A stretch of DNA of 64,000 nt from Klebsiella pneumoniae (GTDB taxonomy: Bacteria; Desulfobacterota; Binatia; UBA12015). This document shows, in pieces, positions 8,437-21,157 of the stretch. Numbering within the stretch: the first letter of the stretch is position 1; every line of letters starts with the position of its first letter. The position numbers and the translations under genes were made by a program. Location of the stretch: positions 1-64,000 of the forward strand of contig CAMBZJ010000013.1 of the NCBI GenBank assembly GCA_945872365.1, read 5' to 3'. A model generated the notes under the pieces. It was not told the origin of the DNA. It searched no databases and saw nothing but the letters and a program-made list of their open reading frames with translations.

Positions 8437-9009
8437 ATGCTCGCGCTCGGCGACCTGAAGAAGCACCAGCGGATCCTCATCGACGGAGACCCGTGGACGG
8501 TCCTGGAGGTGCACTTGCAATCGTCCACGGCGCGCGGCTCGGGCTCCCTCACCAGAATCAAGATGCGCAACCTGCGCACCGCCCAGGTGCTCGAGAAGAC
8601 CTTCCGCAGCGGCGACAAGCTCGAGGAGCCCAACGTCGAGCTGCGAGCCGTCCAGTTCCTCTACAAGGACGCCGACGGCTTCCACTTCATGGATACACAG
8701 AGCTACGACCAGTTCAGCCTCACGGCCGAGGACCTCGGAGACTCGACCGGCTTCCTCAAGGACGGCATGGAGAACCTCCGCTCGATCGTCTTCAACGAGA
8801 AGTTCATCTCGGTCGACCTGCCGAATACGGTCGTACTCCAGGTCACCGAGACCGCGCCCGCGATCAAGGGCGCGACCGCCCAGGCGCAGACCAAGGCGGC
8901 GACGCTCGAAACCGGGCTGGAGATCCAGGTTCCCGCCTACCTCGAGTCCGGCGAGTTGGTCGTCGTCGACACCCGCGACTCGCGCTTCGTCTCGCGCGCG
9001 AAGAGCTGA
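8437..9009 (+). CDS. efp: Translation elongation factor P, Arg-tip type
   Basis: A 190-residue EF-P that relieves ribosome stalling at polyproline. All three beta-barrel domains are present: KOW-like N-domain, the middle OB domain with EKTFRSGDKLEEP and FLYKDADGFHFMDTQSYDQF, and the C-terminal OB domain ending in VVDTRDSRFVSR. The tip loop reads SSTARGSGSLT, so Arg33 stands where E. coli has the modified Lys34 in KPGKGQ. This is not the EarP-rhamnosylated SPGRNAA type either. It resembles the SARG-loop subfamily I recall from deltaproteobacteria and planctomycetes. ATG 8437 follows GGAGAG. It leads dcd with an 8-nt gap. The many Pro-rich proteins nearby make an active EF-P plausible. Confidence 0.95.
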   Translation: MLALGDLKKHQRILIDGDPWTVLEVHLQSSTARGSGSLTRIKMRNLRTAQVLEKTFRSGDKLEEPNVELRAVQFLYKDADGFHFMDTQSYDQFSLTAEDLGDSTGFLKDGMENLRSIVFNEKFISVDLPNTVVLQVTETAPAIKGATAQAQTKAATLETGLEIQVPAYLESGELVVVDTRDSRFVSRAKS

Positions 9010-9017
9010 CCGATCGC

Positions 9018-9527
9018 ATGATCCTCACCCGGGCGGTGATCCTCGCCGAACTCGCCGCCCGGCGCCTGCGCATCGAGCCGATGTCGATGGACCAGGTCGG
9101 ACCCGCCTCGATCGACCTGCACCTCGGCGACGAGATCCGGATCATCGACGTTGGCCCCCCGGTGATCGATGTAAACGACGCCGCCGACTTCCGCAGCGTG
9201 AGCCGCGTGCAGCCGCTCGTCGAACCCTACGTCCTGCAGCCCGGCGAGACGATCCACGGCATCACCCGCGAGCGAGTCACCCTGCCGGACGACGTCGCCG
9301 GCTGGCTCGAGGGGCGCTCGCGCTTCGCACGGCTCGGCCTCATGGTCCACGTCACCGCCGGCTTCGTGAACCCCGGCGTGAGCAACCGCCAGGTGCTCGA
9401 GATCAGCAACGTCTCCCACCGCAAGCTCGCGCTCCACGCCGGGACGCGGATCTGCCAGATCGTGCTGCAGCGGACCGAGGGACGCGCCGCCTACGCCGGC
9501 CGCTTTCGGGACCAGGAACACCTCTGA
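9018..9527 (+). CDS. dcd: dCTP deaminase (possibly bifunctional), divergent
   Basis: A 169-residue trimeric dUTPase-fold protein expected to turn dCTP into dUTP for thymidylate synthesis. Motifs seen: GPASIDLHLGDEI near the N-terminus, GRSRFARLGL (Arg100, Ser101 and Arg105 match E. coli Arg110, Ser111 and Arg115), and VTAGFVNPGVSN followed by VLEISN with catalytic Glu128. The IDPG motif is changed to VNPG, so Asn118 replaces the conserved Asp128 of E. coli, and SNRQ replaces the usual G-x-I turn. The length is at the short end of the family (E. coli 193). It lies 8 nt after efp, so the two likely share a transcript. Confidence 0.85.
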   Translation: MILTRAVILAELAARRLRIEPMSMDQVGPASIDLHLGDEIRIIDVGPPVIDVNDAADFRSVSRVQPLVEPYVLQPGETIHGITRERVTLPDDVAGWLEGRSRFARLGLMVHVTAGFVNPGVSNRQVLEISNVSHRKLALHAGTRICQIVLQRTEGRAAYAGRFRDQEHL

Positions 9528-11662: not shown

Positions 11663-14600
11663 TCAACCCGGCCCGGCGGCGCCCGGCGCCGTCACCGGTC
11701 CGTCGCGCAGTGCGCGGCTCCGCCAGATGGCATAGATCACCGGGTAGACCAGGAGTTCGAGCAGGAAGGAGGTGAAGAGCCCGCCAACCATCGGCGCTGC
11801 GATGCGCTTCATCACGTCCGAGCCGGCCCCGGTCGACCACATGATCGGCAGGAGTCCCATGAACGCCGCGACCACTGTCATCATCTTCGGACGCACTCGC
11901 CGCACCGCCCCGTGGACGATCGCCTCCTCGAGGTCCTGCACGTCGCGCATCCGACCCTGCCGTACGCGCTCGTCCCAGGCGAGGTCGAGGAAGAGCAGCA
12001 TGAACACGCCGGTCTCGGCGTCGAGGCCCATGAGCGCGATCATCCCGACCCAGACCGCGATCGACGTGTTGTAGCCGAGCCCCCAGAGGAGCCAGACCGC
12101 GCCCACGAGCGAGAACGGCACGGCGAGCAGCACGATCCCCGCCTTCACCGCGGAACGCGTGTTCAGGTAGAGCAGGATCGCGATCAGGAAGATGGTGACT
12201 GGCACCACCGTGCGCAGCCGTTCGCGGACGCGGATCATGTTCTCCCACTGCCCGCTCCAGACGAGGCTGGTGCCGACCGGCAGGCGCACCCGTTGCGCGA
12301 CCGCGCGCTTGGCCTCGTCGACCCAGCCACCGAGGTCGCGACCGGCCATGTCGACGAAGACGTAGCCGGCTAGCTGGCCGTTCTCGTTGCGGATCATCGC
12401 CGGCCCCTCGACGACCCGGATGTCGGCGATCTCGGACATCGGCACCTGCGCGCCCGACGGGGTCGCGACGAGCGTCCGGCGCAGCGCAGCCAGGTCGTCG
12501 CGATCGTCGCGGGCATAGCGCACGTTCACCGGGTAGCGACCGCGCCCCTCGATCGTCGTGGTCACGTTCTCGCCGCCGATCGCGGAGAGGATGGTCGTCT
12601 GCGCATCCTCGACGGCGAGCCCGTAGCGGGCGAGCGCGTCGCGCTTGAGGTCGAAATCGACGTAGTAGCCGCCGGCCGTCCGCTCGGCGACCACGGTGCG
12701 GGTGCCGGGTACCGTGCGCAGCACCCGTTCGATCTCCTCGCCGACCTGCTGGATCACCGTGAGGTCGGAGCCCAGGACCTTGACGCCGACCGGGGTGCGG
12801 ATGCCGGTCGAGAGCATGTCGATGCGATTGCGGATCGGCATCGTCCAGATGTTGGGCAGCCCGGGGAGCTGCAGCTTCGCATCCATCTCTTCCTGGAGTT
12901 CCTCCCAGGTGAGATGCTCGGGGACGAACCGGGAGAGCAGGCGACGGACCGGGGCGGGCATGTCGGAGTACCACCGCCGCACCGGGCGCCACTCCGACTC
13001 CGGCCGGAGCACCACGGTCGTCTCGACCATCGAGAGCGGCGCCGGGTCGGTCGGCGAATCGGCGCGTCCTGCCTTGCCGAAGACGCTCTGCACCTCGGGA
13101 AAGCCGTGCAGGATCCGGTCCTGCACCTGGAGCACGCGCTGCGCCTCACCGACCGACATCCCGGGTAGCGCCGTCGGCATGTAGAGCATGGCGCCCTCGT
13201 GGAGAGGCGGCATGAATTCCGAACCCAGGCGGAGATAGACCGGCACCGTACTCGCGACGAGCGCGCCGGCGAGGCCAAGGGTGAGCAGGCGATGTCGCAG
13301 GACGAACCGGCAGACCGGCTCGTAGACCCGGAAGAGCACTCGGCTGATCGGGTGGCGCTCCTCGGGATGGTAGCGCCCGACGGCGACCGAGGTTGCCAAA
13401 GCGGCGAGTGCACGCGGCCGGAATCGAAAAGGCTCCATGCGCGTGAAGAGCATGCGGATCGCCGGGTCGAGCGTGATCGCCAGCAGGGCCGCGATCGCCA
13501 TCGCGAGGTTCTTCGACCAGGCGAGCGGCCTGAAGAGCCGGCCCTCCTGGTCGACCAGCGTGAACACCGGCAGGAAGGCGACCGCGATCACCAGCAGCGA
13601 GAAGAAGACCGACGGGCCGACCTCGCGCAGCGCCTGCAGCCGCACTTCGTGGAAATCACCCTGGCGTCCACCCGCGATCCATTCCTCGAGTCGCTTGTAA
13701 GCGTTCTCGACCTCGACGATCGCACCATCGACGAGCACGCCGATCGAGATCGCGATCCCCGACAGCGACATGATGTTCGAGGTGACGCCGAGGAACCACA
13801 TCGGCAGGAAGGCGAGCACGACCGAGACCGGGATCGTGACGATCGGGATGATCGCCGACGGCACGTGCCAGAGGAAGACGAGGATCACCAGGCTCACGAT
13901 GACCATCTCCTCGACGAGCGAGTGCAAGAGCGTGTCGATCGCGCGACGGATCAGGTCCGAGCGGTCGTAGACGGGAACGATCTCGACCCCGGGCGGCAGT
14001 CCCGAGGACAGCTCGGCGAGCGCCGCCTTCACCCGGTCGATCACGGCGAGCGCGTTCTCGCCCTGGCGCATGACCACGATGCCGCCCACCGTATCGCCCT
14101 CGCCGTCGAGATCGGCCACGCCGCGCCGCATCTCGGGCCCGGTCGCGACCCGTGCCACGTCGCGGACGAGGATCGGCGTGGCCGTCTTCGCGTCGACCGA
14201 CACGACCGTGTTCTCGATGTCCTCGACCGACTTCAGGTAGCCCCGGCCGCGCACCATGTACTCGGCGCCGCCCATTTCGAGCAGGCGCCCGCCGACCTCG
14301 CCGTTGGACTTGCGGATCGCGTCGACCACCTGCGGCAGGCCGAGACCGTAGGCGAGCAGGCGCTGCGGGTCGGCACTCACCTGGTACTGCTTCACGAAGC
14401 CGCCGACCGCTGCGACCTCAGCGACGCCCGGCACGGCCTGCAGCTGGTAGCGCAGGTACCAGTCCTGCAGGCTGCGCAGCTGGGCCAGATCGGTCCCGCC
14501 GGAGCGGTCGACGAGTGCGTACTGGAAGACCCAGCCGACGCTGGTCGCGTCGGGCCCGATCTCGGTGCGGACGCCCTCGGGCAGCCGCGGCAGGATCTTG

Positions 14601-14941
14601 CTCAGGAGTTCGAGCACCCGGGAGCGGGCCCAGTAGAGGTCGGTTCCGTCCTCGAAGACGACGTAGACGTAGGAATATCCGAAGTCCGAGGTGCCGCGGA
14701 CCGCTTTGACGTGCGGAGCGCCGAGCAGCGCGCTTGCGATCGGGTAGGTGACCTGGTCCTCGATGATGTCGGGGCTGCGGTCCCAGCGCGAGTAGACGAT
14801 GACCTGGACGTCGGAGAGGTCGGGGATCGCGTCGAGGGGCACGCGGCGCATCGCCCAGAGTCCGCCCGCGAAGGCGGCGGCGCACAGCAGGAGGACGAGG
14901 AACTTGTTCCGCGCACTCCAGTCGATGATGCGCTCGACCAC
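11663..14941 (-). CDS. cusA: CusA-type heavy-metal efflux RND transporter
   Basis: About 1092 residues, the inner-membrane proton-driven pump of a tripartite Cu(I)/Ag(I)-type efflux system. Seen: N-terminal TM and RVPLDAIPDLSDVQVIVYSRW, GVLVDGAIVEVENAYKRLEEW in TM4 (the HME-RND motif), FMPPLHEGAMLYMPTALPGMS, GKAGRADSPTDPAPL, and the C-terminal GAVRRVRPKMMT and AGSDVMKRIAAP. Met residues in PLSMVETT, DMLSTGI and GPAMIRNEN align, from memory, with the CusA methionine triad, which favours monovalent metals over CzcA-type Zn/Co/Cd. The GTG start at 14941 lies 10 nt after the cusB stop, with GAGGGGC between. It is the last gene of cusCBA. Confidence 0.93.
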   Translation of the reverse strand: MVERIIDWSARNKFLVLLLCAAAFAGGLWAMRRVPLDAIPDLSDVQVIVYSRWDRSPDIIEDQVTYPIASALLGAPHVKAVRGTSDFGYSYVYVVFEDGTDLYWARSRVLELLSKILPRLPEGVRTEIGPDATSVGWVFQYALVDRSGGTDLAQLRSLQDWYLRYQLQAVPGVAEVAAVGGFVKQYQVSADPQRLLAYGLGLPQVVDAIRKSNGEVGGRLLEMGGAEYMVRGRGYLKSVEDIENTVVSVDAKTATPILVRDVARVATGPEMRRGVADLDGEGDTVGGIVVMRQGENALAVIDRVKAALAELSSGLPPGVEIVPVYDRSDLIRRAIDTLLHSLVEEMVIVSLVILVFLWHVPSAIIPIVTIPVSVVLAFLPMWFLGVTSNIMSLSGIAISIGVLVDGAIVEVENAYKRLEEWIAGGRQGDFHEVRLQALREVGPSVFFSLLVIAVAFLPVFTLVDQEGRLFRPLAWSKNLAMAIAALLAITLDPAIRMLFTRMEPFRFRPRALAALATSVAVGRYHPEERHPISRVLFRVYEPVCRFVLRHRLLTLGLAGALVASTVPVYLRLGSEFMPPLHEGAMLYMPTALPGMSVGEAQRVLQVQDRILHGFPEVQSVFGKAGRADSPTDPAPLSMVETTVVLRPESEWRPVRRWYSDMPAPVRRLLSRFVPEHLTWEELQEEMDAKLQLPGLPNIWTMPIRNRIDMLSTGIRTPVGVKVLGSDLTVIQQVGEEIERVLRTVPGTRTVVAERTAGGYYVDFDLKRDALARYGLAVEDAQTTILSAIGGENVTTTIEGRGRYPVNVRYARDDRDDLAALRRTLVATPSGAQVPMSEIADIRVVEGPAMIRNENGQLAGYVFVDMAGRDLGGWVDEAKRAVAQRVRLPVGTSLVWSGQWENMIRVRERLRTVVPVTIFLIAILLYLNTRSAVKAGIVLLAVPFSLVGAVWLLWGLGYNTSIAVWVGMIALMGLDAETGVFMLLFLDLAWDERVRQGRMRDVQDLEEAIVHGAVRRVRPKMMTVVAAFMGLLPIMWSTGAGSDVMKRIAAPMVGGLFTSFLLELLVYPVIYAIWRSRALRDGPVTAPGAAGPG

Positions 14942-14951
14942 GGCGAGCCCC

Positions 14952-16112
14952 TCAGCGGGTCCGCGCTGCGGCGGCGCCGGAAGCGCTCGGGTCCGCGGGC
15001 GCTCGGAAATCGCCCGCCGCGGCGCGGAAGCGCGACTCGGAATCGACGAGGAAGTTCGCGGAGACGACGACGCGATCGCCGGGCTGGAGGCCGGAGAGCA
15101 CCTCGCGAAAACCCTCGCCGTCGCGCCCGAGGACGATCGACCGCGGCTCGAAACGGTGGCCGTCGTGGACCACGAAGACGAACTGCTCGCGCCCGGTGTC
15201 GACGATCGCCTCGTCGGGCACCGCCAGCACCTCGGAGGAGGCGACGAAGATCGTCGCGTCGACGAGCGATTCCGGCCGGAGCTCCCCGGCCGGGGTCGAT
15301 ACCTGCGCCCGCACCCGCACGGTGCGCGTCGACGGGTCGACGATCGGGTCCACGGAGGCGACCCGGGTCTCGATCGCGCGACCGGGGAGTGCGGGCGTAC
15401 GGATCGACATGCGCTGCCCCGGCCGGACCACCGCTGCGTCGCGATCCTGTAACTGCGCGTAGATCCACGCCGTGCGGCCGGGCAGCAGGAGGCTCTCCGC
15501 ACTCGTCCCGCCGCGCAGGATTTCGCGGGCCTGCTCCTCGGAGACGCCCTGTTGGCGGAGCTTCAGGCGCGCGGCGCGCGCGAGCCCCTCCGCGCCCACA
15601 CGAGCCTCCGGCGAACTGCTGCCCGCGAGTTCTCGCTGCGAGCGCATCGCCTCGCGGTATTCCGTCAGCGCCTGGTACGACTTCGGGTCGTAGGCGACGC
15701 GGCCCGTCGCGCGGATTTCCCGCTCGATGCGGCGCAGACCGACGACGGCGGTGCGCACGCCGATCAGTTGCTGGCGCTCGGAGTCGATCGTGATCGGCAT
15801 CCGACCCAGCACCGAGCCCGGCGCGGCCGGGGGCGATTCCGTGACGGGGCCCTGCACCGGCACGGCCCCGCCCGACACCGCCGCGTCGTCGGCGACGAAG
15901 ACGAGTTTCATGCCGCAGATCGGGCAGGACCCGGGTCGGTCGGAGACGATCTGCGGGTGCATCGCGCACTGGTAGTGACCGTGCGCCTGCGGGGCGGCCA
16001 CCCCTCCGTCGGGACGCATGGCGGGGAGTCGCAGTGGCATCCCCGTCCACCAGGCGACGGCCACGGCGACGGACGCGAGGACGACGAGTGCGCCCAGTAC
16101 GCGCCCCATCAC
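14952..16112 (-). CDS. cusB: CusB-type periplasmic adaptor with heavy-metal-binding domain
   Basis: 386-residue membrane-fusion protein linking the RND pump to the outer-membrane channel. Residues 1-25 are a membrane anchor or signal. Residues ~47-70 form a YHS-like heavy-metal-binding domain (YQCAMHP then CPICGMKL, with Cys49, His52, Cys63, Cys66 and Met68). The hairpin and lipoyl/barrel region follow (RATGRVAYDPKSYQALTEY, GRTAWIYAQLQDRDAAVVRPGQ, VDPIVDPSTRTVRVRAQV). The fused metal domain suggests the adaptor collects Cu or Ag itself, perhaps replacing a CusF chaperone, which is not seen here. Its ATG overlaps the cusC stop by 4 nt (ATGA), so translation is coupled. Confidence 0.92.
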   Translation of the reverse strand: MMGRVLGALVVLASVAVAVAWWTGMPLRLPAMRPDGGVAAPQAHGHYQCAMHPQIVSDRPGSCPICGMKLVFVADDAAVSGGAVPVQGPVTESPPAAPGSVLGRMPITIDSERQQLIGVRTAVVGLRRIEREIRATGRVAYDPKSYQALTEYREAMRSQRELAGSSSPEARVGAEGLARAARLKLRQQGVSEEQAREILRGGTSAESLLLPGRTAWIYAQLQDRDAAVVRPGQRMSIRTPALPGRAIETRVASVDPIVDPSTRTVRVRAQVSTPAGELRPESLVDATIFVASSEVLAVPDEAIVDTGREQFVFVVHDGHRFEPRSIVLGRDGEGFREVLSGLQPGDRVVVSANFLVDSESRFRAAAGDFRAPADPSASGAAAARTR

Positions 16113-20005: not shown

Positions 20006-20997
20006 GCCCGGGCGCCCCGTGCCGCCAGCAGGATCCGCTCGATCACCCCCCATGCACCCGGCACCGGGCCCTCGGCGCGCTCGGCGGCGAGCGCCCGGCG
20101 CGCCGCCTCCTCGAAGCGGATCAGCGGGGCGCGACCGACGAGCTTCCAGAAGCGATCGTCCTTGGCGAGCAGGTCGTCCTTCAGTCCGACGACGACCTCG
20201 CGCGCCACCGACCACTCGGCGCGGGTGACGAAGCGGACCCAGTGCGACGAAAGTCGCGGCGAGACGAACGGCACCTGGATCATGAGCGGCCGCGAGGCAC
20301 CGAGAACCTCCGCCGTGCGCTCGAGGATCTCGCGACCGGAGAGAATGTCGGGGCCGGGAATGTCGAACCACCCGCTGCCGGGGACGGGCACGTCGATCGA
20401 CCCGAGGAGGGCGGCGACGACGTCGTCGATCGCGACCGGCTGGGTGCGCGACTCGAGCCAGCGCGGCAGCACCATGAGCGGCAGCCGGGCCGCGAGATCA
20501 CGCACGATGAGCCAGCTCAGGCTGCCGTATCCGATGATCATGCTCGCGCGCAGTTCGACCGTCTCCACGCTTCCCGAGCGCAGCGTCTCGCCGACTTCCT
20601 GGCGGCTGCGCAGGTGCTCGGAGGCATCGCGCGGCGCCGCGACCCCGCCGAGGTAGACGATGCGCCGGACGCCGCTCGCCTCGGCCGCCCGGAGGAAATT
20701 GCTCGCCTGCTCGATCTCGGCGCGGCGGAAGTCCGCGCCTGCCGACGCCATACCGTGCACGAGGTAAAAGGCCGCGTCGCAGCCCTCGAGCGCGCGCGCC
20801 GTGGCGGACTCGTCGGCGACATCGGCGGCAACCCAGGAGCGGGTAGGCCAGCGACGCGTGGCGCGCGCGGCGTCGCGCGTGGCACAGCGAACGGAAAAGC
20901 CCGCGGCTTCGAGCGCGGGCAACACCGCGTTGCCCACGAAACCGGTGGCACCCGTCAACAGGATGCCGCGACCGGCTCCCGACTTCTTACCCGACAT
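20002..20997 (-). CDS. NAD(P)-binding atypical SDR (NmrA/epimerase-like)
   Basis: 331 residues with an N-terminal Rossmann fold: ILLTGATGFVGNAV, then FYLVHGM and RRIVYLGGV where the SDR Ser/Tyr region lies, and DVVAALLGSID in the C-terminal substrate domain. This is the atypical SDR_a5/YbjT-like group of NAD(P)H-binding proteins; the classical YxxxK triad is not clear, so it may sense or bind NAD(P)H rather than catalyse. ATG 20997 is preferred over GTG 21003, two codons upstream. It is translationally coupled to the CPBP protease gene. Confidence 0.85.
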   Translation of the reverse strand: MSGKKSGAGRGILLTGATGFVGNAVLPALEAAGFSVRCATRDAARATRRWPTRSWVAADVADESATARALEGCDAAFYLVHGMASAGADFRRAEIEQASNFLRAAEASGVRRIVYLGGVAAPRDASEHLRSRQEVGETLRSGSVETVELRASMIIGYGSLSWLIVRDLAARLPLMVLPRWLESRTQPVAIDDVVAALLGSIDVPVPGSGWFDIPGPDILSGREILERTAEVLGASRPLMIQVPFVSPRLSSHWVRFVTRAEWSVAREVVVGLKDDLLAKDDRFWKLVGRAPLIRFEEAARRALAAERAEGPVPGAWGVIERILLAARGARA

Positions 20998-21157
20998 GAC
21001 CACTCCCGCCCGCCGGGACGCGCACCACCCGGATCTGAGGGGAGCGCGTGCCGATTCTCGGCCTTGACGCTACGCGGATCCGCGAATCGCACCAGAGCGG
21101 CGGTACCGGATTTCCGCACCGGCCCCACGAAATGCCGGGAGGGGCGGCATGCGGCGC

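Follow-up and report, generated by a model that had tools for sequence, protein, structure and literature searches.

The closest described systems are EfpL (YeiP in Escherichia coli), a paralog of elongation factor P (EF-P), and EF-P itself, a ribosome-rescue factor; the account of them given here follows parts of two papers (PMC11611912 and PMC6544042). EfpL has a working definition, a loop longer than seven residues with an arginine at its tip, and the loop of the E. coli protein, SPTARGAAT, is two residues longer than that of EF-P (PMC11611912). Its Arg33 was unmodified by mass spectrometry, yet needed for function, and the R33K form did not rescue growth; the usual companion of EfpL is an EF-P of the lysylated type (PMC11611912). 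A proline preceding Arg33 is described as strictly conserved in EfpL, as a trait and not as part of the working definition, and there is also the published idea that EarP-type EF-Ps, which are without the proline, arose from EfpL-like ancestors by shortening of the loop (PMC11611912). The corresponding proline of EF-P is of crucial importance in E. coli and does not allow the factor to be activated by rhamnosyl-arginine; loss of this proline accompanies the presence of arginine at the tip (PMC6544042). Here we describe an EfpL that keeps Arg33 without this proline, encoded by an uncultured bacterium in a window of 64,000 nt, which is the whole stretch of DNA that was analyzed.

The gene, efpL (yeiP-like), occupies positions 8437–9009 on the plus strand and its translation gives 190 aa plus a stop codon, without internal stops. 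All three EF-P domains are present above their cut-offs (EFP_N, PF08207, 55.8 bits; EFP/OB, PF01132, 63.9 bits; Elong-fact-P_C, PF09285, 79.4 bits), and this is a real gene of the EF-P family. In an AlphaFold model of the product (mean pLDDT of 87.9, and 69 for residues 31–40), predicted strands span residues 18–28 and 38–45 and leave between them a nine-residue β3–β4 loop, S29–S37 (SSTARGSGS; positions 8521–8547, plus strand). Within it, on the same strand, codon TCC (8524–8526) encodes Ser30, at the position of the conserved proline of EfpL, and codon CGC (8533–8535) encodes Arg33, placed at the loop tip by translation and alignment. A congener represented by a separate assembly, G002, has an identical loop, and the codons for residues 28–38 show six synonymous and no non-synonymous differences between both species, which makes a sequencing error in this loop unlikely.

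The loop aligns without gaps to that of E. coli EfpL, with Arg33 on Arg33, and has both the length and the arginine tip by which EfpL is defined. The sister genera have EfpL loops of the form [ST]PSARGASS, and Arg33 is invariant in the 20 EfpLs that we aligned, with Pro30 or without it. The initial annotation had reported an EF-P family protein with Arg33 in an STARGSGS tip loop, which the translation, the domains and the congener bear out, and had considered that the loop matched neither of the known modified types. The latter is right as far as it goes, the loop being neither of the lysylated nor of the rhamnosylated type, but it overlooked that the loop does match a third described type, that of EfpL, as well as the truly odd point, the loss of EfpL's conserved proline. 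What seemed an EF-P of unknown type is thus an EfpL, and the novelty is the modest one of a variant loop in a protein of known type.

Overall similarity is of little help in this assignment. The product is 34% identical to E. coli EfpL and 36% identical to E. coli EF-P, and overall identity therefore cannot separate both possibilities. Likewise, searches of the PDB with the AlphaFold model retrieved a mixture of EF-Ps and EfpL, with the first EfpL at rank 9, so the fold does not discriminate either. Against the NCBI models for EfpL and YeiP, the window protein scored 175.3 of the 216 bits and 146 of the 264 bits required, below the cut-off in both cases, whereas E. coli EfpL passes both; since the general NCBI efp model is matched above its cut-off, a pipeline using these models would call the gene elongation factor P. 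The top-scoring model was NCBIfam NF011175 (PRK14578, elongation factor P), with 209 bits, which also matches all 20 EfpLs of the alignment, although the score of the window protein is below the 301-bit cut-off of that model.

None of the known modification systems appears to operate on this protein. Profile searches found no EarP in the window genome (97% complete), in 58 relatives or in 148 genomes of the class. As the EarP model matched 0 of 14 default control genomes, we used as controls 56 genomes from the class to which an Alcanivorax genome belongs, of which 2 were matched (E-values of 1e-135 and 6e-101), both with the earP gene adjoining an EF-P gene for a KSGRNAA loop. Rhamnosylation is accordingly rejected, with a model that works in the control. 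EpmB had no match in the window genome and only partial matches, far below the cut-off, in 5 of the 58 relatives. The GenX/EpmA model found matches in all 58 relatives, none of them above the cut-off, and its best match in the window genome is a lysine--tRNA ligase (TIGR00499, 619 bits, cut-off of 427.6); given these results and the arginine tip, we reject lysylation by EpmA and EpmB. None of the three EF-P family proteins of the genome has the tip lysine expected in the lysylated type or in the type 5-aminopentanolylated by YmfI, whose known target is lysine. Proteins of the deoxyhypusine synthase family occur in 54 of the 58 relatives, and such proteins have been offered as merely plausible modifiers of EF-Ps with a Lys or Asn tip (PMC6544042). 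That of the window genome is a homospermidine biosynthesis protein (557.5 bits, cut-off of 450) and no EF-P found there has a tip lysine, for which reasons we also reject a hypusine-like modification in this genome.

The absence of epmA, epmB and earP noted in the initial annotation for the window thus extends to the genome, and the observation that it had set against its own reading, an earP gene co-occurring across the subfamily, was looked for and found in none of the 148 genomes of the class. Its proposal that Arg33 is unmodified or carries an unknown modification probably holds in its first half: an unmodified arginine is the expected state, because the loop is of the EfpL type and mass spectrometry showed no modification on Arg33 of E. 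coli EfpL (PMC11611912). The second half is unnecessary, because no unknown modification of Arg33 is needed to explain the protein.

For the phylogeny, the relatives, E. coli and a scan of named genomes supplied the EF-P family proteins; after removing a repeat of the window protein (L084), one short row and eight duplicates, 162 remained, of which 75 were included in a tree built without the loop columns. The window protein lies within the EfpL branch: it pairs with its homolog from G002 (support of 97, starred) among the EfpLs of its own class, which in turn join gammaproteobacterial and planctomycete EfpLs, near the clade holding E. coli YeiP. A branch with a support of 86 leaves EfpLs on one side and the other labelled groups on the other. 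In the free tree, only 17 of the 72 inner branches are starred, and five EfpLs from other phyla lie on the far side of the midpoint root as drawn; constraining all 35 EfpL rows to stay together improved the score by 10.8 units over that of the free tree (AU p = 0.779). Two EF-P paralogs with a GTAKFKQ loop (L065 from G019 and L081 from G044), both lacking the proline or glycine pattern usually seen, also appeared among the EfpLs in the free tree, on a long branch (1.4). Forcing the window pair outside EfpL was worse by 38 log-likelihood units, with a borderline AU p of 0.055. Joining the pair with two EarP-type EF-Ps cost 13.7 units and was not rejected (AU p = 0.169), which, with the arginine tip and the lack of an upstream proline, would suit an EarP-type EF-P rhamnosylated on Arg33. 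We consider this extremely improbable, since the loop has nine residues and not the seven, with Arg32, of the EarP type, the best tree places the protein elsewhere, and EarP had no match in any of the 148 genomes of the class with a model whose control worked.

Gene order agrees with the window gene being an EfpL ortholog. Directly after efpL, which ends at position 9009, starts dcd (9018–9527, plus strand), for a dCTP deaminase (TIGR02274, 127.3 bits, cut-off of 92.8). Of 10 further loci tested in this bacterial family (the window excluded), 9 likewise have dcd adjoining efpL, among them the locus of the Ser30 congener and loci of genera with Pro30. We did not see this pairing in the loci examined from other families of the class, some of these loci having short flanks. 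Further along the window, a long ORF on the minus strand (11663–15502) resembles, by eye, an RND-type efflux pump.

The two remaining EF-Ps of the window genome have an Asn tip, in loops TPGNLRA and TPGNWRG, and 21 of the 24 relatives bearing EfpL have a partner EF-P with an Asn tip. Asn-tip EF-Ps are already known, and an E. coli EF-P with Asn in place of Lys34 is inactive (PMC6544042). Among the 58 relatives, 47 have an Asn-tip EF-P (PGNWRG, PGNKRG or PGNLRA; e.g., L002, L004, L017, and L024) and seven have PGKG instead. The third EF-P of the window genome (L001, loop TPGNLRAF) is on another contig, C39 of genome G000 (positions 20497–21060). Three EF-P family proteins were reported in only 6 of 4777 surveyed genomes (PMC11611912); a third one, with a KGGGQAGA loop, is also present in G041 (L069). 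The C39 protein is 87% identical to one from G055, from another family of the class, and 78–80% identical to those from three more genomes there; outside that family, identity was at most 52% in full-length matches and 53% in one fragment of 49 residues, and no EF-P of this type was found in 13 other genomes of the window genome's own family. The tetranucleotide composition of C39 has a correlation of 0.993–0.994 with the window, vs. 0.942 and 0.927 with two of the four genomes that carry this EF-P type, both less close than G055. Contamination is disfavored by this composition, matching that of the window genome, and the gene was probably acquired by horizontal transfer from a relative.

The loss of the proline is confined to this genus in our data. 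Among the matches listed, 52 of the 162 proteins have a long loop with arginine, and the residue three positions before it is proline in 50 and serine in two, those of the window and of G002. One of the two patterns used in the scan of named genomes contained SPSARGA, which biases that set toward Pro30; the count within the class is therefore less biased. There, a protein search gave a close EfpL-like match in at least 28 of the 148 genomes, and of the 27 loops that were readable among the matches listed, a set from which a very divergent EfpL could be missing, 25 have Pro30 and two, from the same two genomes, have Ser30. A literature search revealed no earlier description of an EfpL lacking the proline; beyond the listings, it covered parts of PMC11611912 and PMC6544042.

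The proline is one of several loop residues changed in the genus (Pro30Ser, Ser31Thr, Ala35Ser, and Ser36Gly). Taking as conserved those columns identical in 85% or more of 18 further EfpLs of the class (18 of the 25 with Pro30), changes common to both congeners affect 4 of 8 conserved columns in the loop vs. 1 of 78 elsewhere (Fisher p = 1.6e-4; 1e-4 to 2e-3 under five other settings), for a loop chosen beforehand from the finding and the literature and for 18 related sequences that amount to few independent histories. Over the whole gene, the two species differ by 42 synonymous and 29 non-synonymous changes, with a dN of 0.10 and a dS of 0.48 (NG86). From this pattern of substitutions, the gene looks undecayed and under continued selection.

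These changes at residues conserved elsewhere could, nevertheless, be those of a relaxed EfpL that is losing its function, dispensable through the extra EF-P of the genome, and G001, the third genome of this genus, is without an EfpL match at 95% completeness. We find this unlikely, because the frame is open, the dN/dS ratio is around 0.2 with only synonymous changes in the loop codons, and the shared changes at conserved columns are almost confined to the loop. Additionally, no third EF-P is seen in G002, which shares the loop, albeit in an assembly that is only 81% complete. The same joint change of loop residues might instead accommodate a modification of Arg33 by an undescribed enzyme, the loss of Pro30 making room for it as in EarP-type EF-Ps for rhamnose; in EF-P, indeed, rhamnosyl-arginine cannot activate the factor when the proline is there, and an Arg tip accompanies the loss of the proline (PMC6544042). 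To us, this is quite unlikely: E. coli EfpL is unmodified (PMC11611912), Arg33 is invariant in the aligned EfpLs whether or not they have Pro30, EarP is not found in the class, and dcd, on the downstream side, the one neighbor with demonstrated conservation in the family, does not encode a protein-modifying enzyme.

We therefore favor, as the likely reading, that the window gene encodes an EfpL that works without modification and has a loop specific to its lineage. Its function, its contact with the ribosome and its lack of modification are most likely those of E. coli EfpL. By analogy with that protein, it would enter the ribosomal E site, where the long loop would carry the bare Arg33 to the end of the P-site tRNA and help with slow proline bonds, presumably working beside the two Asn-tip EF-Ps of the same cell. 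The rewriting of the loop around Arg33 would have taken place with selection still acting, and probably tunes the way in which the arginine is presented. The case shows that the proline described as strictly conserved in EfpL can give way to another residue with Arg33 retained, which bears on the idea that EarP-type EF-Ps originated from EfpL-like ancestors. More speculatively, the genus might be a natural intermediate on the way from EfpL to an Arg-modified EF-P, with a long loop, the proline lost and Arg33 newly presented, perhaps with a different spectrum of stalls or a new arginine modification, in a cell for which we found no EF-P with a tip lysine; we hold this to be unlikely. The prevalence of Asn-tip partners among the EfpL-bearing relatives, together with the lack of matches above the cut-off to EpmA, EpmB and EarP in the 58 relatives, makes the clade suitable for studying how EF-P can function when no modification of a known kind is available.

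Compared with known systems, the window protein resembles EarP-type EF-Ps, with rhamnosyl-Arg32, in the arginine at the loop tip and the lack of a proline just upstream, but these have a seven-residue loop and an accompanying earP gene, whereas here the loop has nine residues and EarP had no match. It differs from E. coli EfpL (b2171; PDB 8S8U) in having Ser instead of Pro at residue 30, in scoring below the NCBI cut-off for EfpL, and in the Asn tip of its partner EF-Ps. Additionally, the acylated lysines of E. coli EfpL, K23, K40, K51, and K57 (PMC11611912), correspond to L, R, V, and R in the window protein, and the control by acylation of the E. coli protein therefore does not carry over. 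It shares with E. coli EfpL, in turn, the three EF-P domains, a nine-residue loop with a T-A-R-G core that contains Arg33, and their placement together in the tree.
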